Positions 4,047 to 55,532 of a DNA stretch of 55,532 bases are shown here, piece by piece. The stretch comes from Alphaproteobacteria bacterium. GTDB lineage: Bacteria > Pseudomonadota > Alphaproteobacteria > JAUHZY01. The DNA lies in assembly GCA_030425825.1 (NCBI GenBank), contig JAUHZY010000001.1, forward strand, positions 1,606,834 through 1,662,365, written 5' to 3'. The notes beneath the pieces were generated by a model. It did not search any database. It was not told where the DNA came from and saw nothing but the letters and a program-made list of their open reading frames with translations. Each line of letters starts with the position of its first letter. Positions within the stretch are counted from its first letter, which is position 1. The position numbers and the translations under genes were made by a program.

Positions 4047-4865
4047 TTAAGGGGTAAGTCGATAGACACCTTTGATGCCTGCAGAGTCTTTAAATGCGTC
4101 GCAAATGCCATAAGGTGTCTCTGCGCCACCAAGGTATAAATACCCATCTTTGGAAAGAATTTTAGCGAGTTGATCAAGGACCTTTTTTTTCAAGGGAACA
4201 TCAAAATAAATAAGCACGTTGCGGCACAATATAATATCGAATGAACCAAGGTCTTCCAGACCATTCATCAAGTTGTGCTGTTGGAAGTCAACAGATGAAA
4301 TAATGTCGTTCGAAATACGCCATGTGCGCGTATCAATTCTGTGGAAGTATTTTTCTCTATAAAGAGGGTCAAGGCCTCGTTGCACTTCAAAGTCTGAGTA
4401 AATACCATTTTTTGCTTTGACAAGGACATGTTCTGATATGTCTGTTGCAAGAATCTGAATATCAAAATCTTTATATTCTTTTGGAAAGTGATGATCTAAT
4501 ATCATTGATATGGAGTATGGTTCTTGACCATTTGAACACGCAGCGCACCATATTCTTATTTTTTTTGTTTTTGCGCGTTGTTTGAAAAGAAGAGGTAGTG
4601 CTTTCTCTTTGAGATGAATAAAGGGTTTTCCATCACGAAAGAAGAAAGACTCATGTGTTGTCATGGCGTGAATGGTGTCTACTAAAAGACCTTCAGAGTC
4701 TCCTTGTTTTAATCTATTCACAAGATCTTTTAAGGACGGTATTTGTCTTTTTTCCATGACAGGTTGAAGTCTTGTTTCAAATAAGTAGTTTTTTTCATCA
4801 TTTAGAATGACGCCTGTTTCATTTTTTATGAGGTTTTGGAGATATTTAAAATCAGATATATTCAT
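4047..4865 (-). CDS. cheR: Chemotaxis protein methyltransferase CheR
   Basis: Methylates glutamates of chemoreceptors with S-adenosylmethionine for adaptation. A CheR N-terminal helical domain (about residues 1-75) is followed by a Rossmann-type methyltransferase domain with WCAACSNGQEPYS as the SAM-binding motif and an FDIILCRNVLIYF segment. Length 272 aa is normal. There is no C-terminal TPR or pentapeptide-docking extension. It is the last gene of the cheA-cheW-cheB-cheR run and starts 1 bp after the cheB stop codon. Confidence 0.95.
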   Translation of the reverse strand: MNISDFKYLQNLIKNETGVILNDEKNYLFETRLQPVMEKRQIPSLKDLVNRLKQGDSEGLLVDTIHAMTTHESFFFRDGKPFIHLKEKALPLLFKQRAKTKKIRIWCAACSNGQEPYSISMILDHHFPKEYKDFDIQILATDISEHVLVKAKNGIYSDFEVQRGLDPLYREKYFHRIDTRTWRISNDIISSVDFQQHNLMNGLEDLGSFDIILCRNVLIYFDVPLKKKVLDQLAKILSKDGYLYLGGAETPYGICDAFKDSAGIKGVYRLTP

Positions 4866-4866
4866 C

Positions 4867-5991
4867 TTATCGATCCAATATAATATCAGAGGCTTTTAGG
4901 CCTATCTCGGAAATGGGAAGAATATGCGCGCATAGATTGGCTGTTGCAACAGCCCCAGGCATTCCCCAAACTACGCTTGTTTCTTTATCTTGGGCGATAA
5001 CATTCCCCCCTTGGTCAACAAGCGCTTGGCAGCCTGCTAAACCATCTTTGCCCATCCCTGTTAGTACAACGGCTAAGACCCGGTCTTTAAAGATGTTTAC
5101 GATGCTTTTCAGCATGGGGTCTGCCGCAGGGCGACAGAAATTTTCAGGTGGGTTTTGGTTTAATGAGATTGTAGGTTCTTCTATTGTTCCTGCAATTGTC
5201 ATATGATAGTCGCCTGGCGCAACATAGATTGTGTTCTTTTCAAGATGTTCGCCATCTTCTCCTTCTTTTGCTTTCCAGCCAGACTGCCTTTCAATATGTT
5301 GGCATAAAATGGGCGTGAAGGCTGCAGGCATATGTTGTGTTAAGAGAACTGGAATGCCAATAGCTTTATCAAGATCTTTGAAAAATTGGAAAAGTGCTTG
5401 TGGGCCGCCAGTTGAGCTTGCAACAGCAAGAATTCTAGGTGTGTCACCTTTTACTTCTCGTGTACTGAAGCTTTTATTTTTTAATGGTTTGAAGGTTGAT
5501 TCATATTGAACAGTTGTTTCTTCTTTTGTTTCAAGAGTTGGCATGGCGAGCTTATTTTTTCTACGCCTTCTGACGCCCCAAATACGTATTTTATCGATTA
5601 ACTCTTTTTGAAAGTTTTCAGCAGAAATCATACTGCCTATTTCAGAGCTTGGTTTAGAGATATAATCTCTTGCCCCTAATGCGAGAGATTTAAGACTTAT
5701 TTCTGCATTTTTACCTGTTAGGGTTGATGCCATAATAACGCGCGTGTCTTTTGTATGTTTTATGATTTCTGGTAATGCTGTCATGCCATCCATTTGAGGC
5801 ATTTCGACATCAAGCGTAATAACATCTGTATCTGGATTATTTTTTGCAATTTCGATGGCTTCTATACCATTTTCGGCCTGTCCAATAACAACCATGTCTT
5901 CTTGTTTGTTAATAGATTTTTCGAAAATACCTCTGACGACAGAAGAGTCGTCAACAATAATAATTTTGAGAGGATCTTTATATTTATTCAT
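4867..5991 (-). CDS. cheB: Chemotaxis response regulator / methylesterase CheB
   Basis: Removes methyl groups from, and deamidates, chemoreceptors when phosphorylated by CheA. The N-terminal receiver domain (about 1-125) has DD at 14-15 and phospho-acceptor D61 (ITLDVEMPQMDG). A basic linker leads to the methylesterase domain with catalytic S193 (ASSTGG), H220 (TQHMPA) and D316 (GMGKDG). All catalytic residues are present. The start overlaps the cheW stop by 4 bp (ATGA at 5991-5988), which suggests translational coupling. Confidence 0.96.
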   Translation of the reverse strand: MNKYKDPLKIIIVDDSSVVRGIFEKSINKQEDMVVIGQAENGIEAIEIAKNNPDTDVITLDVEMPQMDGMTALPEIIKHTKDTRVIMASTLTGKNAEISLKSLALGARDYISKPSSEIGSMISAENFQKELIDKIRIWGVRRRRKNKLAMPTLETKEETTVQYESTFKPLKNKSFSTREVKGDTPRILAVASSTGGPQALFQFFKDLDKAIGIPVLLTQHMPAAFTPILCQHIERQSGWKAKEGEDGEHLEKNTIYVAPGDYHMTIAGTIEEPTISLNQNPPENFCRPAADPMLKSIVNIFKDRVLAVVLTGMGKDGLAGCQALVDQGGNVIAQDKETSVVWGMPGAVATANLCAHILPISEIGLKASDIILDR

Positions 5992-6467
5992 GAAATCAAT
6001 GTGTTTAGAAGCGCTTCAATATTAAGGACAACGAGTAACTCGCCTTCCATTCTGTAGACGCCAGATGATGCTTTTTTCCATTTATCATCCATTGTTCCAG
6101 GATTGTTTTCAAAGTTTTCGTCTGGTAGAGAAATAACATCGCCAACCTCGTCAACGATAAACCCAAACCATTGCCCTGCTTCTTCGATGACAATGATCAT
6201 TTCTTCGTCAAGCGTTTCGTCTTTCTCAACCCCCAGAACACACCTTAAATCAATTGCCGTCACAATGTGGCCTCTGAGGTTGAGAATGCCACGAATTTCA
6301 GGTGATGCAAGGTATACCTTTGTTATAGGTTGAAAGTTTAAAACATCATTAATCATTAGGACAGGGATGCCAAATAGCTGGTTTTCTATTTTTATGGTTA
6401 CAAACTCTTGATTCCCTTCGCTAGGGGAGATTACAGAAAAATCTTCTCTTTTTACAATGTTACTCAT
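5988..6467 (-). CDS. cheW: Chemotaxis adaptor CheW
   Basis: Scaffold that joins CheA to chemoreceptor signalling tips. A single CheW domain fills the 159 residues, with the typical FGIPVLMINDVL and GILNLRGHIVTAIDLR segments. It overlaps cheA upstream and cheB downstream by 4 bp each, so cheA, cheW and cheB are probably co-translated. No chemoreceptor gene lies in the window, so the receptors it couples to are encoded elsewhere. Confidence 0.94.
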   Translation of the reverse strand: MSNIVKREDFSVISPSEGNQEFVTIKIENQLFGIPVLMINDVLNFQPITKVYLASPEIRGILNLRGHIVTAIDLRCVLGVEKDETLDEEMIIVIEEAGQWFGFIVDEVGDVISLPDENFENNPGTMDDKWKKASSGVYRMEGELLVVLNIEALLNTLIS

Positions 6468-9109
6468 GCAGCACCTTGTTCTTCTAGCTCTTCTTCTAGC
6501 TCTTCAGCCTTAAAAGAAGCATTAAAAATATCCCTTAAAGATTCTATCAGCGCATCACGATTTGTTTTTGAAACATAGTCAGAGAATCCCGCTTGATGAC
6601 CTTTTTCAAGATCTTCAGGCGTCGTGTGTGCAGAAAGCGCAATCAATGGCGTATCTTCCCATATAGAGCCTGCCTTGATGGTTTCTGCAAATTCGAATCC
6701 ACTGATGCCAGGCATCTCAATATCGCTGACAATAGCGTCAAAGATCAGGCCTTTCTCACAAAGGACAAGCGCTTCTTCAGCACTTTTCACAGCTCTTACC
6801 TGATAACCGGCAACTGACAAAACAGGAGAGAGAAGATTCCTGAAGAAAGAGCTATCATCTACAAGTAAGATCTTCTTCGACCCTCCTTCAGCAGCGTCAC
6901 CTTTTGCAGATCTTTGCGAAGCAAACCAGTCACCAAAAGCCTTTTCAATATAATAACTCACGTCAATAATATCCGTTGCTTTACCATTAATAATGGCGCT
7001 CCCTATGCTGCCTTCTTGATCTGAAAGAAGTTCAATACTTAGTTCTTGTTCAATGATATCAACGATATCATCCACAACAAGCCCCATCATTTTTTCATTT
7101 TCTGAGAAAACAAGAATAGGCATTTCAATATTTTCTTCAGGGATTTCTTCTTGTCCATTTGCCCAAATAAGCGGCATTAGATGATTTCTGTACTGTACGA
7201 CAAATCTATTATTACTACGTTCAATATTTCCTGACCAAACCTTCTCAAGGCGTGACACAAGCGAAAGTGAAACAGCTTTCGGATTCCCTTGACCTGCGGA
7301 AAAAAGAAGGAAGTCAGTATTTTCGTTAAATCCTTCGGCGTCGTTATCGCTATCTGCCAGACTTTCGCTGGCAGCTGAATCTTGATCGACAGTTGTTGCA
7401 ATGCTGTTGGGATCAAGAATCATGATAACATTTCCATCTCCAAGTATTGTATTGCCTGCATATAAGGGGATGTTTTGTAAAACTGTCGATACGGGTTTTA
7501 CAACAATTTCTTCAACATCAAAAACCTTATCAACCATAATACCAAAGTTCCTAGACCCGACTTGAGAAACAACGATATAGCGATCTTTATTTTCTTCTTC
7601 GGTGTCGATATGCAGCAGGTCACGTAGCGATGTTAGAGCTAATAAATGATTGCGTAAGCGTAGTAAAGGCGCGCCATTTATATACTCGATATTATCTTTA
7701 ACACGGACAAGCTCAATGACGCTTAATTGAGGAATTGCAAACCTTTCACCCGCAGATTCAACGATAAGAGCAGGCATGATGGCAAGCGTCAGAGGAATTT
7801 TAATGTAGAAAGTTGAACCTTGCCCAGTGACAGAATTCAGTTCAATTGATCCACCAATTTTTTCAATATTTGTTCTCACCACATCCATTCCAACACCCCG
7901 GCCTGAAACAGATGTCACTTCGGTGGCTGTTGAAAACCCAGGTTTGAAAATAAAAAGATGAATTTGCTGATCAGAAAGTTTTCTCATTTCTTCTTCAGTC
8001 GCTAGGCCATTTGCAACAGCCTTTTCTATAATTTTTTCAGTGTTCAGGCCTTGGCCATCATCTGCGATTTCAATAATAATATAGCCCCCTTCGTGGTAGG
8101 CGCTAAGTGTTACTTTCCCTGCTTCTGGCTTGCCAGCAGCGAGGCGTCCTTCGGTGGATTCTAGTCCATGATCTGCTGAATTTCTGACCATATGCATCAG
8201 TGGATCGCGAATCATTTCGATCACCTGGCGATCCAGCTCGGTGTCTTCGCCAATCATTGTGAAGTCAATTTTCTTATTGAGGTCATTTCCTAGATCACGA
8301 ATAATTCTGGGAAGCTTACTCCATGCACTGCCAATAGGCTGCATGCGTGTTTTCATCACAGTTTCTTGTAGATCTGTTGTGATATGACTGAGGCGTTGCA
8401 GCGGCGTTGTAAAAAGGCTGTCTTGCTCATTGCGTGCAACTTGGATAAGTTGATTTCTTGTTAACACAAGCTCGCTTACAAAATTCATTAAATCTTCGAG
8501 AACATCGACATTCACACGAATACTTTGTGTTGCGATGGATCCTCCTTCTTTAGCAGGTTGTTTTGCTACAGCTGTTTCTTTTTTCTCTTCAACAGGCGGT
8601 TTGGGTGGAGGTGTCTCAGCTTGTTCTTCTTCTGGTGTTTCGGCTTCAGCTGTAAGGCCTTCTTCTTCTACAGTGCTTTCTGATGTGTTTTCTTCCGCGG
8701 GCGCTTCTTCCCCTGATGGTGCATCGCCAGCATCACCGTTATAAATGGCATCTAGGCGGTCGGTGATATCATCATCATCACCCTCGGGTTCTGCTTCTGT
8801 TTGTTCTAAAGAAACAAGAATACCTTTGATGCGGTCGAGTGTTTCTAGGATAAGGGAAACGATTTCTGGGGTTGCTTGGATTTCATTCTCACGTACGCGA
8901 CCGAGAACGTTTTCGGCGCGATGTGCAACTTTCTCAAGGCGTGGAAGACCTAAAAAACCACAGGTGCCTTTAATGGTGTGCATGACACGAAAAATATTTC
9001 CTATAATTTCAGCATCATCAGGATTCTGTTCAAGGCGAATGACTTCTATGTCGAGAACATCCATGCTCTCGTTGGCTTCTGTCAGAAACTCTTCGAGTAG
9101 TTCGTCCAC
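6464..9109 (-). CDS. cheA: Hybrid chemotaxis histidine kinase CheA with two CheW-like domains and a receiver
   Basis: Chemotaxis sensor kinase that phosphorylates CheB and, elsewhere, CheY. An N-terminal HPt domain has phospho-accepting H44 (VMHTIKGTCGF). An acidic and proline-rich linker (about 125-190) replaces the CheY-binding P2 domain. Dimerisation helices, a HATPase domain with N and G boxes (MVRNSADHGLE, DDGQGL, GRGVGMD), a CheW domain, a second degenerate CheW-like domain (about 595-730) and a receiver domain from about 745 with phospho-acceptor D796 follow. At 881 aa it is much longer than the E. coli type. The start is a GTG at 9109 preceded by a G-rich GGGGG; the 3' end overlaps cheW by 4 bp. 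Confidence 0.94.
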   Translation of the reverse strand: MDELLEEFLTEANESMDVLDIEVIRLEQNPDDAEIIGNIFRVMHTIKGTCGFLGLPRLEKVAHRAENVLGRVRENEIQATPEIVSLILETLDRIKGILVSLEQTEAEPEGDDDDITDRLDAIYNGDAGDAPSGEEAPAEENTSESTVEEEGLTAEAETPEEEQAETPPPKPPVEEKKETAVAKQPAKEGGSIATQSIRVNVDVLEDLMNFVSELVLTRNQLIQVARNEQDSLFTTPLQRLSHITTDLQETVMKTRMQPIGSAWSKLPRIIRDLGNDLNKKIDFTMIGEDTELDRQVIEMIRDPLMHMVRNSADHGLESTEGRLAAGKPEAGKVTLSAYHEGGYIIIEIADDGQGLNTEKIIEKAVANGLATEEEMRKLSDQQIHLFIFKPGFSTATEVTSVSGRGVGMDVVRTNIEKIGGSIELNSVTGQGSTFYIKIPLTLAIMPALIVESAGERFAIPQLSVIELVRVKDNIEYINGAPLLRLRNHLLALTSLRDLLHIDTEEENKDRYIVVSQVGSRNFGIMVDKVFDVEEIVVKPVSTVLQNIPLYAGNTILGDGNVIMILDPNSIATTVDQDSAASESLADSDNDAEGFNENTDFLLFSAGQGNPKAVSLSLVSRLEKVWSGNIERSNNRFVVQYRNHLMPLIWANGQEEIPEENIEMPILVFSENEKMMGLVVDDIVDIIEQELSIELLSDQEGSIGSAIINGKATDIIDVSYYIEKAFGDWFASQRSAKGDAAEGGSKKILLVDDSSFFRNLLSPVLSVAGYQVRAVKSAEEALVLCEKGLIFDAIVSDIEMPGISGFEFAETIKAGSIWEDTPLIALSAHTTPEDLEKGHQAGFSDYVSKTNRDALIESLRDIFNASFKAEELEEELEEQGAA

Positions 9110-48152: not shown

Positions 48153-49892
48153 ATGCAAAAACTTTTCAAACTTTCTTTACTGTTCTTATTTGTGTTTGTT
48201 GCTGCTTGTGGTGAAGAACCACCACCCGCACCAACACCACCGCCTTTGGAAATACCAGAGAATGATGATACATTTTCCAATGTTCTCAAGTTGCCACCAA
48301 GGCGTCCCGCACGTGGTGAGTTGACGCCACCAGAAGTTAAGCTTCTTGAGCTAAAGCCAGATGAGGCTGCACAAAAGATCGTTATTTTTTCAAATACAGG
48401 GCAGTTACCTCTTAAGATAAAAGGGCTGAGAAGTACCGGAAACAATGCAAAAATCTCTGTTGAAGGAAGTTGTAAGCCAGATCTGGAAATTGACCCAGGC
48501 CAAGGATGTGACTTGTCAGTAAAGTTTGAGGGCGCAAAAGCCCAAGCGCCCCTTAAAAGTGAAGTGATCATTTTTCATGATGGTGATAATGCGCCATCAT
48601 TTTTGCCTATCACAGTTGAGGTTGTGAAGCCGCCGGAGCCACCTGCGCCTCCGCCAGAGCCAGAACCAGAGCCAGAACCGGCCCCTGCGCCTGCACCAAG
48701 ACCTGTTGTTCAGGCTCCTCGTCCTGCGCCTCCCCCAAGAGTTGAGGCACCTGCGCCTCCCCCTCCTGTCATTCGGCGTGTATCACCGGTTGCACCATAT
48801 GGAAAAACACTTAGCGCCATCGCTTTAAAAAGATCGGATAGCGGTATTAAAATTCATCTCGCTGAAGATGCCCTTGATGAAGGCGATCAAATAACACAAT
48901 ATCGTATGAAGGATTCAAATTGGGATCGTGAAGAGCTTTTGTCTGATGAAGGTCTTTTCCCTAAAACAACCTCTACGTTTCCTGTCGATCGTACAAGAAT
49001 TATTACAGCTGATCGGCATATTGCTGCAATTCTAGAGACGCCAATTAATGGATCTTTTGGTGGACGCGTTGTTGCCGTTGTTGAGAGAAATATTTATGGC
49101 AGTGATGGCCGTAAAGTGTTGATTCCTGCAGGCGCTCGCGTCGTAGGGGAGTCTCCTGCAACAGAGGGTAGTTCAGACCCAAGGATTGAAGTGACGTGGA
49201 GTCGCGTTTTACTGCCTAATGGCGCAACAATTGCGATTGACTTTACAAGCGCTGATTCGGTCGGACAGCATGGTGTCGTTGGTCATGTGCAAAAGCGATA
49301 TTTTGAACGTTATGGGGTTCCTTTGCTTGTTTCTGCCATTGCAGGTTTGACACGTATAGCAGTCAGTGATTCAACAAGTGGTGTGACGGTTATTGGTGAT
49401 ACTGTGACAGAAACATCAGAGTCACCGAAGCAAGAAGCTATTGACGATTTAACACAAGAGCTTTCGGATAAGCTGACGGAGGCACTGGAAGAAAATACAG
49501 AAGCAGAGCCTGTAGTTACAGTCCCCGCAGGAACGCGTATTTATGTTGTGCCAACGCGTGATATTTTCTTGCGAGATCCAGAGACATTTGTTGCAGCAGC
49601 AGATGAGAGAGAGCGATTAAGAGGAAAAATTTCTGATCTTTCGGTTGAGAGGTTCATCGCAGATCCAAAACAATATCCAGAAAGATATGGCATATCAGAG
49701 CTTCCACGTGTTGAACAAGCACCAGAAAGGCGTTTTCAGCCTTCAACATCCCCGAGCGGATACGATCGTGCTCAGCCAAACTGGGCGCCTGCATTAAGAC
49801 TGCCACCAAGCAGTCCTCTTGCGCCAAGCCCAGTTCCGCAAGGACAAGCTGGCAACAGGCCTTCAGAAAACAGCGGACCGCCTCTTAAATAG
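48153..49892 (+). CDS. virB10: VirB10/TrbI-family T4SS protein, predicted lipoprotein with ASH-like domain
   Basis: Probable envelope-spanning scaffold of a type IV secretion system. The N-terminus is a lipoprotein signal (lipobox VAAC, C19) in place of the usual VirB10 inner-membrane helix. A beta-rich domain (about 60-158) reads like an ASH/choice-of-anchor module (FSNTGQLPLKIKGL, a C107/C119 pair, DPGQGCDLSVKF). A proline-rich stretch (about 160-208) leads to the TrbI/VirB10 domain (about 275-475): ETPINGSFGGRVVAVVERN, IPAGARVVGES and VPAGTRIYVVPTRD. A Pro-rich tail follows. Position ahead of virB11 and virD4 supports the call. The N-terminal architecture is unusual. Confidence 0.85.
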   Translation: MQKLFKLSLLFLFVFVAACGEEPPPAPTPPPLEIPENDDTFSNVLKLPPRRPARGELTPPEVKLLELKPDEAAQKIVIFSNTGQLPLKIKGLRSTGNNAKISVEGSCKPDLEIDPGQGCDLSVKFEGAKAQAPLKSEVIIFHDGDNAPSFLPITVEVVKPPEPPAPPPEPEPEPEPAPAPAPRPVVQAPRPAPPPRVEAPAPPPPVIRRVSPVAPYGKTLSAIALKRSDSGIKIHLAEDALDEGDQITQYRMKDSNWDREELLSDEGLFPKTTSTFPVDRTRIITADRHIAAILETPINGSFGGRVVAVVERNIYGSDGRKVLIPAGARVVGESPATEGSSDPRIEVTWSRVLLPNGATIAIDFTSADSVGQHGVVGHVQKRYFERYGVPLLVSAIAGLTRIAVSDSTSGVTVIGDTVTETSESPKQEAIDDLTQELSDKLTEALEENTEAEPVVTVPAGTRIYVVPTRDIFLRDPETFVAAADERERLRGKISDLSVERFIADPKQYPERYGISELPRVEQAPERRFQPSTSPSGYDRAQPNWAPALRLPPSSPLAPSPVPQGQAGNRPSENSGPPLK

Positions 49893-49947: not shown

Positions 49948-51006
49948 ATGAAAACAATAAATCCATTACTGGCAGCTGCAATTCGTCCATTGGCTGCGTA
50001 TTATAGCAATCCTGGCCTAGAAGAAATAGCCATTAACCGTCCAGGAGAAGTTTGGTTAAAACACGCTGGTGGTGGTGATAAAAAGCTGAATAGTCATTCG
50101 GGGTGGGAGGCTGTTGATGCACCTGAAATTACTTACAACTACCTTGAAGACCTTTGTGTTCAGCTTTCAAACGTGACAAAGCAGAAATTTGATCCCGAAA
50201 TGTCGCCTGTTCTTTATGCTGACTTGCCAGAAGGACACAGATTTACGTCTATTTTAGGGCGAAATGTTCAGTATGATAACTTTGATGATAAAGGTGTTGC
50301 GATCGCGATTCGTCTTTATTCTCCTGATCGTGTGATTGGTCTAGAGAAGTTTGGTCTTACGGAAGAGTCCGCAGACCTAGAAGTAGCAGATGATCATTCG
50401 GGACAAAGAAAACGTTATTCAGAATCCCCTTTAGAAGATCTTGTTGGGGCTGTTCAGAATGGTGAAGCCGTTCTGATTTCTGGGGCGACAGCAACAGGGA
50501 AAACGACTTTTCTTAACAACTTAATAAGCCGTATTGAAGAAGATCGTCGTGTGGTCACGGTTGAAGACGTGCGCGAGCTGCGTGTGCCACATAAAAATCG
50601 TGTGCATTTGGTCGCCAGTCGAACGAATTCCTCGACGGATGTAGATGATCGTGCGCTTCTTGATATTGTTGTGCGGATGACACCAGACGTTTTGATTTGT
50701 GGTGAGATTGGTATGAAAAATGCTGCGGGTATTTACCGCCTGATGACGACCGGACATTCGAATTTTATGTGTACTATTCATGCGCATAGTCCAGAGCTGG
50801 CAATTCGTGCCTTTTGGCAAAACCTATCACAATCAATGCCTGGCTTGGACCCTAAATCAGTGATGGATGTTATCTCTGCAGGGTTTGGTCGTATTGTTCA
50901 AATTGAACGTCAGGGACGTAATCGTGTTGTAACGGCAATTGATATGCCAAAATTAAGTGCTGAAGAATTTACAGAAAAAGGGTATGGTGAAAATCCTCCT
51001 AAGTAG
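49948..51006 (+). CDS. virB11: VirB11-family T4SS ATPase
   Basis: Hexameric cytosolic traffic ATPase that powers pilus formation and substrate transfer in T4SS. The N-terminal domain has the VirB11 hallmark GLEEIAINRPGEVWLK. In the C-terminal domain, Walker A is GATATGKTT (179-187), VVTVEDVREL is the Asp box, PDVLICGEIG the Walker B and TGHSNFMCTIHAHSP the His box. Length 352 aa is normal. AAGGGA is 9 nt before the ATG. It lies between virB10 and virD4, the same order as in Rickettsiales vir clusters. Confidence 0.93.
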   Translation: MKTINPLLAAAIRPLAAYYSNPGLEEIAINRPGEVWLKHAGGGDKKLNSHSGWEAVDAPEITYNYLEDLCVQLSNVTKQKFDPEMSPVLYADLPEGHRFTSILGRNVQYDNFDDKGVAIAIRLYSPDRVIGLEKFGLTEESADLEVADDHSGQRKRYSESPLEDLVGAVQNGEAVLISGATATGKTTFLNNLISRIEEDRRVVTVEDVRELRVPHKNRVHLVASRTNSSTDVDDRALLDIVVRMTPDVLICGEIGMKNAAGIYRLMTTGHSNFMCTIHAHSPELAIRAFWQNLSQSMPGLDPKSVMDVISAGFGRIVQIERQGRNRVVTAIDMPKLSAEEFTEKGYGENPPK

Positions 51007-51019
51007 GTCAGGTTAAAGA

Positions 51020-53746
51020 ATGTTTTTTAATAACTACAGAATGTTGAATGCCGGTAAGGCCCATCTGCGCGCTAAGCTTGATTGGGTAAACTGGAACGTA
51101 AGGACGTCTGTTTTTGGCGTTATTGTTGGGTTTACATTATTATTTTTGGCCTATCCGTTTTCAATGGTTTTGGAAATGGGCTTTAACAAACAAAGCCTTT
51201 CATGGATGGGAGGGTTCTTTACAACATTTTTCCCTTACTTTTTTGATTATTGGATTCCGGCTATTTGGGATTGGATTAAGGAGTCTAATAGGAATGGTGC
51301 TTTTCTTTTACCATTATCGATGTGGATTGCGATTGTCACACCTATATTCGTCATCATTATTGGGACATCTATGAACCCTCACTGGGCTTTGCCATCACAT
51401 TTTGGTCGTGCGCGTGAGGCTGATTATAGAACAATTAAAAAGATGGGTGTGTTGAATGGCTGGCTTGTGATCTTGGGTAAATGGCAAAGAAAATATCTCA
51501 TGCTGAAAGAGACATTAACGGTCCTTTGTATGGCCCCCCCAGGAACAGGTAAAACGACAGGTGTGGTTGTGCCGACAATGTTGAGCTGTGATGCCCTGAC
51601 AATGATTGTAAACGACGTGAAGCCTGAGATCGCGAGAATGACAAGCGGATATCGTGAGACGGTGAGTTGTGTTTTTGTTCTTGAGTGGGCAGCCTCTGAT
51701 GATCCTGAGATTAATCTTTTTTACCCACGTTGGAATCCACTTTCTCCAGGCGTTATTCCACCAGCAGGTGCAAATAGAGATTTGTATATTGACCGATTAA
51801 CAAACGTTATTGTTGAGGAACCTAAGGGAAACCAAGATCCACACTGGACAATTAAGGGGCGTGCTGCGCTTGCTGGGATGATCCACTTCATCGCAGCGAA
51901 AGTTGAAAGCGGAAGTTATGAAGGGCTGCCTGCTAAGTGGCATGGCGAAGAGGCAAGCTTGCCTATGATGATCGATTGGCTGAACGAAGGTGTTTATAAC
52001 GCTAGTAAGGTGATCGAAGAGTTACGCCAGACAGATCCCAATGCTGCTTTGATGGCTGATCCCATGAGAGAGTTTTTAAGTGATGCAGCAAATGAGTCTA
52101 TGGAAAATAACTATAGTAGTCGTGCCTTTCTTGAACTAAACCAGCTTGCAAATACCCCTGATAAAGAACGTGGTTCTATCTTAAGTACGATGGATGGTGG
52201 TCTTATTGTTTTCAAAAACTCGGCTGTTGTTGCGCGCACGAGTGCTTCAGATTTCGAATTTATTGATACGCGTGGGATGATTGATCAAGATGATGGTCAA
52301 ATGAAGCCCATGACGGTTTATCTTTGTGTGAACCTGGAAGACGCGAAAGCCCTTGGGACGATTACGGGTATTTTTGTTGAAACCTTAACAGCTTGGCTTG
52401 TCGCGCATGCACCAGGGGCTAAAGATAAGGCTGGTCGTAAGGCTGGCCCATATCCTGTCTTGTTTGTTCTTGATGAGTTCCCGCAAATGCCTAAGCTTGA
52501 TGCCCTTATGAAGGGTCCCGAGGTTGGTCGTGGACAGAAGGTTTCATATCTGTTGATTGGACAAGACCTTGCACAGGTGGAAGAAACTTATGGGAAAACA
52601 GGTGTTGAAAGATTCTTCTCGAACTCTTTTGCCAAAATTATTTTGCCGATGAACAATGATGCTGCCGCAAAACGTATCGGTGATATGATCGGGAAAGTAA
52701 CAATTATTGAGAAAAGTAGAAGCCGTGAAGAAGGTATTGGTGCAAATGTGAACCCTTTTAAAGCTAATGTAACCAAGTCTTATAAAGAGCATATGATTTG
52801 GGCTGGTGGTGATATTTTGAATATGGAAAAAGGTATTCAGCTTGTCTTGATTCAAGGATTTACGAGACGACCAATTGTTTGCCAAACACCATTTTTCTTT
52901 AAAGATCCGAAATTTAGAAGAATGGTTTCTCCTGGGGATGGTGGGGTTTTTCCTGCTGCACCACCCATGCCAGACTGGAAGATTCGTGAACGAATAGAGA
53001 AATATCAAGAAGAAAAGAAAGAGCTTGAAAAGTTATCGGCAGAAGGCAAAGCACCCACTGCGCCAGGACAGTCCCAACAAGCACAAGCAGCACAGCAACA
53101 GGATGAATCCATTTATGCACGGATTATTATTATGTTTAGCGATGTTGTTGCAATTGACGAAGATACAGACACAGCAATTATGGAAATTGCTTGTGCGGAA
53201 CTTCAAGATGGTGAGGTTACAGGAAATAATTTCCATATTTTTTGTAAGCTATCAGCAAGTGACCTTGAAGAATATAAAGAGAATGTTGCGGAAAGGGTGC
53301 CTGAATGGCTAGATTCTTACGCTGTGAGTGTAGAAAGGCTGGGTGACGAAACAGATCCAGAGAGGCGCGCGGAAGCTTTAGCGTCTGAAGAAGCAAAAGA
53401 GGTGAGCGAAAAAGTGCCTTTATTCTCTGACATTGCCTCAGAATTTATTGAATGGATTAACCCATCTCCTGTTGTTTCCTATAACGCAGGGCTGGAGTTT
53501 GGTGTTTTAAACCCTGAGCTTATGAAGGCAGATTATGATCCTATTCCGGGCGAAAGAATTTTCTCGGTGATTGATTGGTCTAAAGAAAACCTACCTGACG
53601 CTAACAGCTCTATCATAGGCCTTGCGAATCATTTTGGTGTTGATGCTGTTGAGGAAGAACATGGCTTGAGATATTTACAATATCTTGCGGGCATCTACTT
53701 AAAAGTTGAAGAGATTGAAATCAATAATATGATGGCAACTTCATAA
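51020..53746 (+). CDS. virD4: VirD4/TraG-type T4SS coupling ATPase fused to a degenerate DnaQ-like exonuclease domain
   Basis: Inner-membrane ATPase that brings substrates to the T4SS channel. Two membrane regions (about 30-52 and 95-116) precede the ATPase domain with Walker A PPGTGKTT (173-180), Walker B VLFVLDEF (480-487) and a GQDLAQVEETYG segment. After a Gln/Ala-rich linker (about 655-697), a 200-residue C-terminal domain aligns by eye with DNA polymerase III epsilon: TGNNFHIFCKL, ASEFIEWINPSPVVSYNAGL and HGLRYLQYLAGIYLKV. The exonuclease acidic residues are lost (no D-x-E in the first motif, E826 for Asp, L886 for Asp); H881 remains. At 908 aa it is much longer than VirD4 (about 600-650). 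Confidence 0.88.
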   Translation: MFFNNYRMLNAGKAHLRAKLDWVNWNVRTSVFGVIVGFTLLFLAYPFSMVLEMGFNKQSLSWMGGFFTTFFPYFFDYWIPAIWDWIKESNRNGAFLLPLSMWIAIVTPIFVIIIGTSMNPHWALPSHFGRAREADYRTIKKMGVLNGWLVILGKWQRKYLMLKETLTVLCMAPPGTGKTTGVVVPTMLSCDALTMIVNDVKPEIARMTSGYRETVSCVFVLEWAASDDPEINLFYPRWNPLSPGVIPPAGANRDLYIDRLTNVIVEEPKGNQDPHWTIKGRAALAGMIHFIAAKVESGSYEGLPAKWHGEEASLPMMIDWLNEGVYNASKVIEELRQTDPNAALMADPMREFLSDAANESMENNYSSRAFLELNQLANTPDKERGSILSTMDGGLIVFKNSAVVARTSASDFEFIDTRGMIDQDDGQMKPMTVYLCVNLEDAKALGTITGIFVETLTAWLVAHAPGAKDKAGRKAGPYPVLFVLDEFPQMPKLDALMKGPEVGRGQKVSYLLIGQDLAQVEETYGKTGVERFFSNSFAKIILPMNNDAAAKRIGDMIGKVTIIEKSRSREEGIGANVNPFKANVTKSYKEHMIWAGGDILNMEKGIQLVLIQGFTRRPIVCQTPFFFKDPKFRRMVSPGDGGVFPAAPPMPDWKIRERIEKYQEEKKELEKLSAEGKAPTAPGQSQQAQAAQQQDESIYARIIIMFSDVVAIDEDTDTAIMEIACAELQDGEVTGNNFHIFCKLSASDLEEYKENVAERVPEWLDSYAVSVERLGDETDPERRAEALASEEAKEVSEKVPLFSDIASEFIEWINPSPVVSYNAGLEFGVLNPELMKADYDPIPGERIFSVIDWSKENLPDANSSIIGLANHFGVDAVEEEHGLRYLQYLAGIYLKVEEIEINNMMATS

Positions 53747-53751
53747 AAGTG

Positions 53752-54249
53752 CTAATGTGCTGAAGGCTTTTTTGTAGGCATTGGGGGGACAGGCTTCTTG
53801 GTAGGCGCCGGTTTTTCTTCAGGTTTTTTCTGAATATCTAGGGTGTTCGCAGTTAATGTTGCACTTAAAGGATGACCGTCACAATCCACGCCAACACACA
53901 TTTTTTCTATTTTCCATGTGCTAAGAGGGTTAAGATTCACAGCACTGTGAAGTGCAGCCCACCACTCATAATAAGATTCAATCTTAGGGAAGTTTATCAT
54001 AATGTTTTTTGAGCTGCTGAGAACCTTGCTCTCTGGGTAACTTTTTTTCAAATACTCTTCTACGGCTTTATATTCTTTCTTATTCATATCGCGCAGATGT
54101 GTTTCAGGCAGCTGAAGGGAAACCCCTTCTTTCGGCAAGTTATTGTGGTCAATTGTTTCAGGTTTTTGCTGAACAAAGCTGATGCCGATGGCCATCATAA
54201 GGATGGCGCACCCCCATATGCCAAGAATAATTATTTTTGACTTATCCAT
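53752..54249 (-). CDS. Bitopic membrane protein of unknown function, GspM/PilO-like
   Basis: Not recognised as a named family. One N-terminal membrane helix (about residues 5-26) is followed by a periplasmic domain with a predicted alpha-beta-alpha-beta-beta order: helix at KKEYKAVEEYLKKSYP, strand NIMINFP, helix YYEWWAALHSAV, strands WKIEKMCVG and LSATLTANTL. That order is the ferredoxin-like fold of GspM/PilO assembly-platform proteins. The C-terminal 25 residues are Pro/Lys-rich. It begins 1 bp after its upstream partner ends and is convergent with virD4 (5-bp gap). The GspM/PilO (or IncI PilP) resemblance is inference from pattern only. Confidence 0.55.
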   Translation of the reverse strand: MDKSKIIILGIWGCAILMMAIGISFVQQKPETIDHNNLPKEGVSLQLPETHLRDMNKKEYKAVEEYLKKSYPESKVLSSSKNIMINFPKIESYYEWWAALHSAVNLNPLSTWKIEKMCVGVDCDGHPLSATLTANTLDIQKKPEEKPAPTKKPVPPMPTKKPSAH

Positions 54250-54250
54250 T

Positions 54251-55532
54251 TTAATTCCTTACCTCTATCACGACCCAATCTGTTTCATCTTTTTTGACGT
54301 TTACTTTAGAGCCAAATTTTTCAAATATCTTTGTCGGCGTTGTTTCTGGCATTTTAAAATCCCAAGAGAACTTACCGTCATTCAAATGAACTTTTTGTAC
54401 GTATCCACCAAACTTATTTGCAAAAAGAGATATACGATGAATATCGTCTAGCGTTGATAAGGCAGGGCTTCTTGTTTGTGAAAACTCTGTTATCTGAGAG
54501 AAGTTCTCATTTATTTTCTTTGTATCAATTGACTGAATCTTAATTGTTTTAGGAGGTTGAACATCAGGAATCATTAAAGATGCTATGACCATGCTGATAC
54601 CCAACATCATAAAAAATACCCCTGTTATTGCAGCGATAGATAATGCTTTTGGAAGTTGGTCGAGTTTTGAAAAAATACCTCCATCTAGTTGGGTGGGTGA
54701 AGGATTAAAAGAAGGTTCTTCTGGGAAGGTTTCTTCCGTCATTTCGCTGTATGGTTCTTCAAAATGCTCTTCAACAGATTCCATCTCTGGTTCTGTTTCA
54801 AGGGCTGTGTTTTCATGATTCTCTTTCTCAATTTCTTCGAAGCTATTGGCATCATATTGTTGCCATAGTCCTCCTTCCATCTGGTCAACTTGAACAAAGT
54901 TCAAACCTTCATTTGATTCAACAAATTGATCCAATTTATCAAGAGGGATAATAGCATGTGCAAAGTCACCAACGGTTTTGATAATAATCAGATAAGATGA
55001 CTCGAAAGATAGGATATATGCGCCATTACCTTCATGATTTTGCATATTAGGTAGGGATGCTGTTAGTTGTGTTTTGCAATGTGCATGCTGGAAGAACTCT
55101 TCTTTTGCAGCAATGAGATACACATGTTCATCATCAAAACTGGTTATCATGCGTACATTTTCAGTACCTAGAGTTTCTTTTGCAAACATATATGCCAAAT
55201 GTTCTGGCGGAACATTATGGTCAAAGTCGATTGCTTTTACCAAAAGATCTGTTGGTGTAAATTCCTGAATATCATCTTGTGCAGCGGTCGTTTCAGTATT
55301 GCTATCAGCTTCTTCAGGTGTTTCTTCTGATACTTCGTTTGCCTCATCATCTGAAGACTCAATTTCGTCTTGACGCTCCTCTGAAAACTCTTCAGCATTT
55401 TCTGCTTCTGCTTCTGCTTCTGCTTCTGCTTCTGCTTCTGCTTCTGCTTCTGCTTCTGCTTCTGCTTCTGCTTCTGCTTCTGCTTCTGCTTCTGCTTCTG
55501 CTTCTGCTTCTGCTTCTGCTTCTGCTTCTGCT
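54251..55532 (-). CDS. Bitopic membrane protein with N-terminal Glu-Ala repeat, GspL/PilO-like (5' partial)
   Basis: Not recognised with confidence. The frame has no stop to the window edge, so the start lies outside; a TTG at 55243 is inside the frame and has no support as a start. In order: at least 44 residues of alternating Glu-Ala, an acidic stretch, a cytoplasmic domain of about 120 residues (from LLVKAIDFDHN to VQVDQ), a second acidic linker, one membrane helix (LSIAAITGVFFMMLGISMVIASLM), and a 100-residue periplasmic domain with helix-strand-strand repeats. The layout matches GspL, BfpC/TcpD or IncI PilO proteins. Its stop is 1 bp before the GspM/PilO-like gene. Confidence 0.55.
   Translation of the reverse strand, partial: AEAEAEAEAEAEAEAEAEAEAEAEAEAEAEAEAEAEAEAEAEAENAEEFSEERQDEIESSDDEANEVSEETPEEADSNTETTAAQDDIQEFTPTDLLVKAIDFDHNVPPEHLAYMFAKETLGTENVRMITSFDDEHVYLIAAKEEFFQHAHCKTQLTASLPNMQNHEGNGAYILSFESSYLIIIKTVGDFAHAIIPLDKLDQFVESNEGLNFVQVDQMEGGLWQQYDANSFEEIEKENHENTALETEPEMESVEEHFEEPYSEMTEETFPEEPSFNPSPTQLDGGIFSKLDQLPKALSIAAITGVFFMMLGISMVIASLMIPDVQPPKTIKIQSIDTKKINENFSQITEFSQTRSPALSTLDDIHRISLFANKFGGYVQKVHLNDGKFSWDFKMPETTPTKIFEKFGSKVNVKKDETDWVVIEVRN
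55401..55532. repeat. Perfect hexanucleotide tandem repeat, (TCTGCT)22, running off the window
   Basis: Twenty-two uninterrupted copies of TCTGCT fill the last 132 bases. On the minus strand they lie in frame and encode alternating Ala and Glu (GCA GAA) near the N-terminus of the GspL/PilO-like protein. Because the unit is 6 bp, gain or loss of copies changes linker length without a frameshift. The array continues past the edge, so the true copy number is unknown; short reads could not span it, and the window may end here for that reason. Confidence 0.95.

Follow-up and report, generated by a model that had tools for sequence, protein, structure and literature searches.

A type IV coupling protein encoded close to the end of the window analysed here, a stretch of 55,532 nucleotides of DNA from an alphaproteobacterium (GenBank assembly GCA_030425825.1), carries an unusual C-terminal tail. 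Profile comparisons indicate that the last ~200 residues of this VirD4 protein are homologous to the DnaQ exonuclease, that is, the epsilon subunit of DNA polymerase III. According to the alignments, the exonuclease active site of the tail looks dead. None of the other coupling proteins examined showed this fold, and the fusion is known from one genome.

The VirD4 coupling ATPase and its gene neighbourhood

The virD4 gene occupies positions 51020 to 53746 of the plus strand and consists of a single unbroken open reading frame (ORF) of 908 codons plus stop. Its 908-residue product matched the Pfam family T4SS-DNA_transf with 187.3 bits, compared to a curated cut-off of 20.1, which identifies it as a VirD4/TraG-type coupling protein. 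TraG-D_C and TrwB_AAD_bind were matched as well. Residues 1–660 (51020–52999, plus strand) form a conserved core, which shares 46–51% identity with eight alphaproteobacterial VirD4 relatives in an alignment. The core contains the Walker A motif GTGKT (residues 175–179) and the motif DEFPQMP (residues 485–491), and hydrophobic stretches were seen by eye in the N-terminal part, near residues 30–50 and 95–115. Judged by its sequence, this portion of the protein is an ordinary VirD4/TraG coupling ATPase.

The gene is encoded together with other genes of a type IV secretion system (T4SS). Directly upstream on the plus strand lie the genes for a VirB10/TrbI-type protein (48153–49892; Pfam TrbI, E 4.4e-37) and a VirB11-type ATPase (49948–51006; Pfam T2SSE, E 3.4e-22), and contig C5 of this genome carries genes for VirB8, CagX/VirB9, and VirB4. 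A search limited to the relaxase family PF03432 revealed no such relaxase in the genome, which makes us lean toward a protein-secreting system. Downstream, five bases separate the end of virD4 from a small convergent gene (53752–54249, minus strand), the product of which has a relative beside virD4 in locus L008 (32% identity over 111 residues, E 3e-15). A second convergent gene (54251–55531, minus strand), which is truncated by the contig end within an (AE)n repeat, has a weak relative in L008 (21% over 87 residues, E 1e-6). The VirD4 protein of L008 is tail-less. Because the relative of the neighbouring gene occupies the equivalent site in L008, the tailed and the tail-less state of one chromosomal site can be set side by side, this synteny comparison comprising a single relative.

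Some further features of the secretion genes were recorded. The VirB10/TrbI-type protein has, by eye, an N-terminal lipoprotein-like signal (FVFVAAC), and its N-terminal part gave weak matches to DUF1573 and Ig-like domains, which were below the cut-off. On contig C5, a gene with a secretin domain (L154:946–7254; PF00263, E 2.8e-16) adjoins the CagX/VirB9-, VirB8-, and VirB4-type genes, so that this T4SS may include a secretin-like part. A second VirB4-type gene (PF03135) is located on the 48 kb contig C11 (L153), on which inspection by eye also showed ORFs resembling a T4SS cluster, a VirD4-like protein of 646 residues, and transposases. This contig may be a plasmid or a stray contig. At about positions 55400–55531, both the window and contig C2 stop within the in-frame repeat encoding (AE)n, and this repeat may have broken the assembly at the end of C2.

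The C-terminal tail is a remote relative of DnaQ

Beyond the core, a linker that is first charged and then rich in Gln and Ala (residues 661–698; 53000–53113, plus strand) leads to the DnaQ/epsilon-like domain (residues 699–897; 53114–53710, plus strand), which was recognised by profiles, by a phmmer search of the PDB, and by a structural model. A first-pass annotation of this DNA had aligned residues 698–897 (positions 53111–53712 of the window) with Pol III epsilon, and its ORF, coordinates, and motifs were as claimed. The NCBIfam profile TIGR01406 (dnaQ_proteo) matched the tail with an E value of 4.1e-14 and 52.8 bits. The phmmer search, at E values up to 10, returned only three distinct sequences, all of them E. 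coli Pol III epsilon (E 2.2e-6 to 2.6e-6). A profile of ten DnaQ proteins of the same class scored the tail at 74.2 bits, with a maximum of 8.6 bits among 2000 shuffled copies, 1315 of which returned any score. Chance similarity to DnaQ is ruled out by these values. The alignment had been said to include all three exonuclease blocks. The profile match indeed spans the domain, but block one is weak when taken alone (12.0 bits and i-E 0.023 with the DnaQ profile; i-E 3.8 with phmmer against the PDB).

The NCBIfam score of the tail is far below the curated TIGR01406 cut-off of 222.7 bits, and the tail is thus not classified as an epsilon equivalog. Pfam gave no match to the tail even at an E value of 10, and PHROGs gave none at 0.01. 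Taken together, the blank Pfam and PHROGs searches and the low NCBIfam score indicate that the tail is a remote, degenerate relative and not an epsilon subunit. We also considered a known VirD4 C-terminal domain as the identity of the tail; Pfam offers none for this region.

The fusion to the coupling ATPase looks like a true one. Between M650 and M705 there is no in-frame ATG, GTG, or TTG codon; the rare start codons ATT and ATA occur in frame at 655, 659, 698, and 702–704. Codon 705 lies within the first strand of the tail model. In-frame codon usage amounted to 0.378 bits per codon for the tail versus 0.265 for the core, and the five other frames of the tail scored below zero. Thus, the tail is in frame, has good codon usage, and is not preceded by a separate ATG, GTG, or TTG before its first strand. 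A frameshift or adjacent-gene artefact is not favoured in view of the single open frame, the lack of ATG, GTG, and TTG codons at 651–704, and the core-like codon usage, and the latter also disfavours pseudogene decay of the tail.

Active site and insert

We aligned the tail with active DnaQ proteins at the positions of D12, E14, D103, and D167, which we take to be the metal ligands of epsilon. These four residues correspond to F706, D708, E826, and Y885 of VirD4, respectively. At motif I (53135–53143, plus strand), F706-S707-D708 replaces D-T-E. Motif II (53483–53497, plus strand) reads N822-A-G-L-E826, the catalytic Asp being exchanged for Glu. At motif III (53660–53677, plus strand), H881 is retained, and the catalytic Asp is replaced by Y885, or by L886 in a gap-free alignment. 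The first-pass annotation had described the acidic catalytic positions as replaced, with no D-x-E in block one and E826 at motif II, and the histidine H881 as kept, all of which the alignments bear out. It had assigned L886 to the motif III Asp; there is no acid at this position, but the aligned residue is Y885, one position off. The set of F706, D708, E826, Y885 (or L886), and H881 therefore lacks the DEDDh residues of an active 3′–5′ exonuclease.

An acidic insert of 34 residues (residues 745–778; 53252–53353, plus strand) extends from the third strand to a DPER sequence, as seen in both alignment and model. In the alignment, DPER is opposite NPER of DnaQ, whose subsequent VHG is gapped in the tail. 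The DnaQ profile left the insert/DPER segment wholly unaligned.

We considered whether the tail could have retained nuclease activity, the catalytic residues having migrated. D708, E826, and H881 do persist at the site or close to it. However, Phe and Tyr (or Leu) stand where epsilon has D12 and D167, and the genome retains a separate, normal DnaQ (L001) with DTETTG intact. Residual nuclease activity of the tail is therefore highly improbable.

Predicted fold of the tail

The tail was modelled with AlphaFold2, for which an alignment with ten exonucleases from viral contigs served as input. The model reached a mean pLDDT of 79.5, with values of at least 90 for 110 of 226 residues. The sole stretch under 50 comprised residues 77–96 of the modelled segment, corresponding to residues 759–778 of the protein. 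In a Foldseek search with the model, four epsilon entries came out on top (E 1.3e-7 to 3.9e-6, TM-scores of 0.53–0.56 by query length). VIA-align gave epsilon 2gui as the best match (Z 15.9, rmsd 3.0 over 160 residues, 25% identity), followed by S. aureus DinG, a DNA polymerase entry, RNase T, and other exonucleases. The first-pass annotation had proposed superposing a predicted structure on epsilon as a check; the predicted fold matches epsilon, in a model made with the exonuclease alignment. When predicted from the single sequence, with no alignment, the tail failed to yield a confident structure (pLDDT 36.6). Since a confident model needs the exonuclease alignment, the model is homology-driven. 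Sequence and predicted structure are similar to DnaQ/epsilon over the exonuclease domain, and an RNase H-like DnaQ/epsilon fold is supported by the model, which depends on the exonuclease alignment.

Relative to Pol III epsilon (DnaQ), a member of the DEDDh superfamily, the tail is alike in predicted fold, sequence homology, and the motif III histidine. It differs from epsilon in the replaced acids, the missing VHG, the insert, the early end after the exonuclease domain, and the fusion to a secretion ATPase.

The fold matches also bear on the idea that the dead domain grips the 3′ end of DNA or RNA and passes it on to the ATPase to be transferred. Several of them, such as RNase T and ExoI, bind 3′ ends and have structures that include single-stranded DNA. 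DNA is also handled by the coupling proteins of conjugation. Moreover, a review links acidic C-terminal regions to DNA-binding proteins (PMC7434980). We nevertheless consider a nucleic acid grip unlikely. The tail has a net charge of −30 over 210 residues and a pI of 4.1, its catalytic acids are replaced, VHG is missing and preceded by the acidic 34-residue insert, and no PF03432 relaxase was found in the genome. These properties weaken the DNA-end receptor that the first-pass annotation had offered as one option. The acidity of the tail alone says little, because the ten active DnaQ proteins are acidic too, with pI values of 4.2–5.5.

Distribution among VirD4 relatives

To our set of related loci, 29 were contributed by a search of the genomes of the class and 80 by genome_contigs. 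The two sets partially overlap, and L009 and L049 have an identical C-terminus, so that the resulting 109 loci are not a count of independent species. At these 109 other VirD4 loci, the DnaQ profile (E 0.01) matched none of the ORFs of at least 60 residues in the fetched stretches. Two loci, L015 and L096, are cut off and thus uninformative on C-termini. The DnaQ tail was absent from all of the 107 complete C-termini, including that of L008, the best DnaQ score being 1.9 bits. The VirD4 C-termini of the 107 complete loci differ between lineages. Past residue 651, the protein described here extends for 257 residues, compared to a median of 36 in the 107 complete relatives; with its pI of 4.1, it possesses the acidic, variable extension beyond the core by which C-terminal domains of type IV coupling proteins (T4CPs) are recognised. 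One relative (L014:3349–3771) has a different type of C-terminal extension, 140 residues long, for which neither Pfam (E 0.1) nor the DnaQ comparison gave a match.

VirD4 was matched at an E value of 1e-20 or better in 41 of 385 genomes of the class, the window's genome among them, and in none of the other 40 did the match extend past residue 702. The order of the source organism is represented by this one genome in the set. Among the neighbouring orders, those of G119, G019, G032, and G010 (two, two, one, and four genomes, respectively), eight of nine genomes were matched, none past residue 683. The partial genome G222 gave no VirD4 match at the limits set. An alignment scan of genome_contigs yielded 185 relatives, the best 80 of which showed no match past residue 699. 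Scans for a tailed VirD4 with P0001 in genome_contigs and viral_contigs gave no relative, and the P0002 scan of viral_contigs gave none either. With the whole protein as the query, 4686 plasmid records were matched, 0 of them covering 80% of the query; among the 20 listed, the alignments end at residue 659 or earlier. The tail by itself matched six plasmid records, all annotated as dnaQ, and found matches in 313 of the 385 class genomes. Among the tail matches listed, the only frames longer than 452 residues were that of the window and a 739-residue DnaQ-ankyrin ORF of genome G189.

Fusion of VirD4 or another T4CP to DnaQ, an exonuclease, or RNase H was not described in the titles and abstract openings of the open-licence papers listed by literature searches for it. 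Together with the 107 tail-less relatives, this agrees with the first-pass annotation, which knew of no described coupling protein carrying this fusion. Its suggestion of a new substrate-recognition module would hold for the fold, which is new among the coupling proteins examined; partner-recruiting C-termini are already a known class (PMC7434980).

A second degenerate DnaQ homologue in the same genome

The genome encodes a free-standing DnaQ-like protein of 201 residues, P0003 (C2:303947–304549; L004:1258–1860). Its gene is an intact ORF on the same contig as virD4, about 1.35 Mb away, outside the window to which the first-pass annotation was limited. P0003 was matched by no NCBIfam profile at E 10 and by no Pfam profile at E 0.1; the DnaQ profile scored it at 16.0 bits, with up to 9.6 bits in 2000 shuffles. 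In an alignment-dependent assignment, P0003 lacks the acidic residues of motif I and the histidine of motif III; the Asp positions of motifs II and III are occupied by Glu and Tyr, respectively, both as in the tail. A search of its own genome with P0003, at E values up to 10, returned only P0003 itself and the VirD4 tail (2.3e-7). In local alignments, P0003 resembled the tail (score 116, Z 14.6) more closely than it did the DnaQ of this genome (score 61, Z 6.0). That DnaQ, in turn, was a better match to the tail (135, Z 19.2) than P0003 was, and the best class matches of P0003 were the DnaQ-ankyrin ORFs of G189 (1.7e-12 and 1.8e-11), ahead of the tail.

For phylogenetic trees, rows were chosen by motif I pattern and minimum length, leaving out L040, L044, and L135, and the long viral rows L136, L138, and L139 were dropped in a second round. 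Trees including both proteins grouped the tail with P0003 (support 100/97 and 100/98), both on long branches. In the tree without the tail, P0003 was nearest to the G189 DnaQ-ankyrin domains, and the tree without P0003 provided no supported place for the tail. Because the branches are long and neither protein has a stable place once the other is removed, the sisterhood of the tail and P0003 is not proven.

The G189 ORFs adjoin each other (L046:3352–4734 and 4824–7019). In each, apparent ankyrin repeats, seen by eye, follow a DnaQ domain that looks intact (DTETTG), and the G189 genome also has a VirD4 relative. The two ORFs possibly encode nuclease effectors.

The divergence of the tail, with an end branch of 1.87, 2.7, or 10 changes per column depending on the tree, and its occurrence in one genome only would fit a chance fusion of a duplicated dnaQ-like gene to virD4, tolerated as a drifting passenger without a role. 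We regard this as rather unlikely, since about 200 codons are still open with core-like codon usage in frame, the profile match spans the domain, the model is confident in its core, and the second dead homologue, P0003, is likewise an intact ORF.

Possible role of the tail

That the C-terminus of this chromosomal VirD4 has acquired, behind a flexible linker, a DnaQ/epsilon-type exonuclease domain devoid of its metal-binding acids is supported by homology, the predicted fold, the replaced catalytic residues, the in-frame fusion, the lack of the tail in the relatives compared (in L008 next to related genes), and the free-standing dead homologue P0003. We consider it somewhat probable that this domain acts as a non-catalytic protein-docking platform. 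We infer this role from the acidic tail, the lack of catalytic acids, the linker, and the search of the genome in which no PF03432 relaxase was found. The C-terminus of VirD4-type proteins faces the cytoplasm below the ATPase ring. The tail would thus hang in the cytoplasm beneath the ring, where the acidic, non-catalytic domain could dock a set of substrates at the pore, either directly or through an adaptor that binds them, as the C-terminal domains of other coupling proteins do. The tail is a putative substrate-recognition module. The flexible linker and the acidic domain adjoining a nucleotide-driven ring could, judging from sequence features, also serve an intramolecular regulator, with the tail folding back on the ATPase or the hexamer to gate it; we deem this improbable.

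If the tail is a docking platform, P0003 is the first candidate for a partner, because RNase T and TREX1, both exonucleases of this superfamily, form dimers. Its choice as a special partner is a guess, given that the tail is closer to its own DnaQ, that P0003 is closer to G189, and that the two group on long branches. It is distinctly unlikely that the tail and partners of the same fold (P0003, possibly other DnaQ-domain proteins) constitute a dead-nuclease lock-and-key for the loading of T4SS cargo.

To our knowledge, no DnaQ fold is present in DotL of the Legionella Dot/Icm system. DotL is likewise a coupling ATPase; its IcmS/IcmW-binding domain is required for one substrate class (PMC3441705) and is referred to as the acidic tail of DotL in a review (PMC7434980). 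More generally, the review describes the C-terminal domains of coupling proteins as heterogeneous, rich in Glu and Asp, and involved in the recognition of relaxosome parts or effectors (PMC7434980), with which the pI of 4.1 of the tail is in line. Like the VirD4-type T4CPs with a C-terminal domain covered there, the protein described here combines a full core with an acidic, variable extension (PMC7434980). Unlike other T4CP C-terminal domains, its extension is, by homology and model, a folded pseudo-exonuclease. Inactivated DnaQ-like exonuclease domains are also kept in PolA2 and group G2 B-family DNA polymerases, and there too the dead domain resides within a larger protein (PMC12926913). 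The host protein is a secretion ATPase in our case and a polymerase in theirs.

A central question in the field of type IV secretion, still open, concerns cargo choice by coupling proteins. A recognisable folded pseudo-enzyme at the partner-recognition end of a coupling protein offers a module for a direct partner search. If the docking role is true, a replication proofreading fold would have been recruited to protein traffic.
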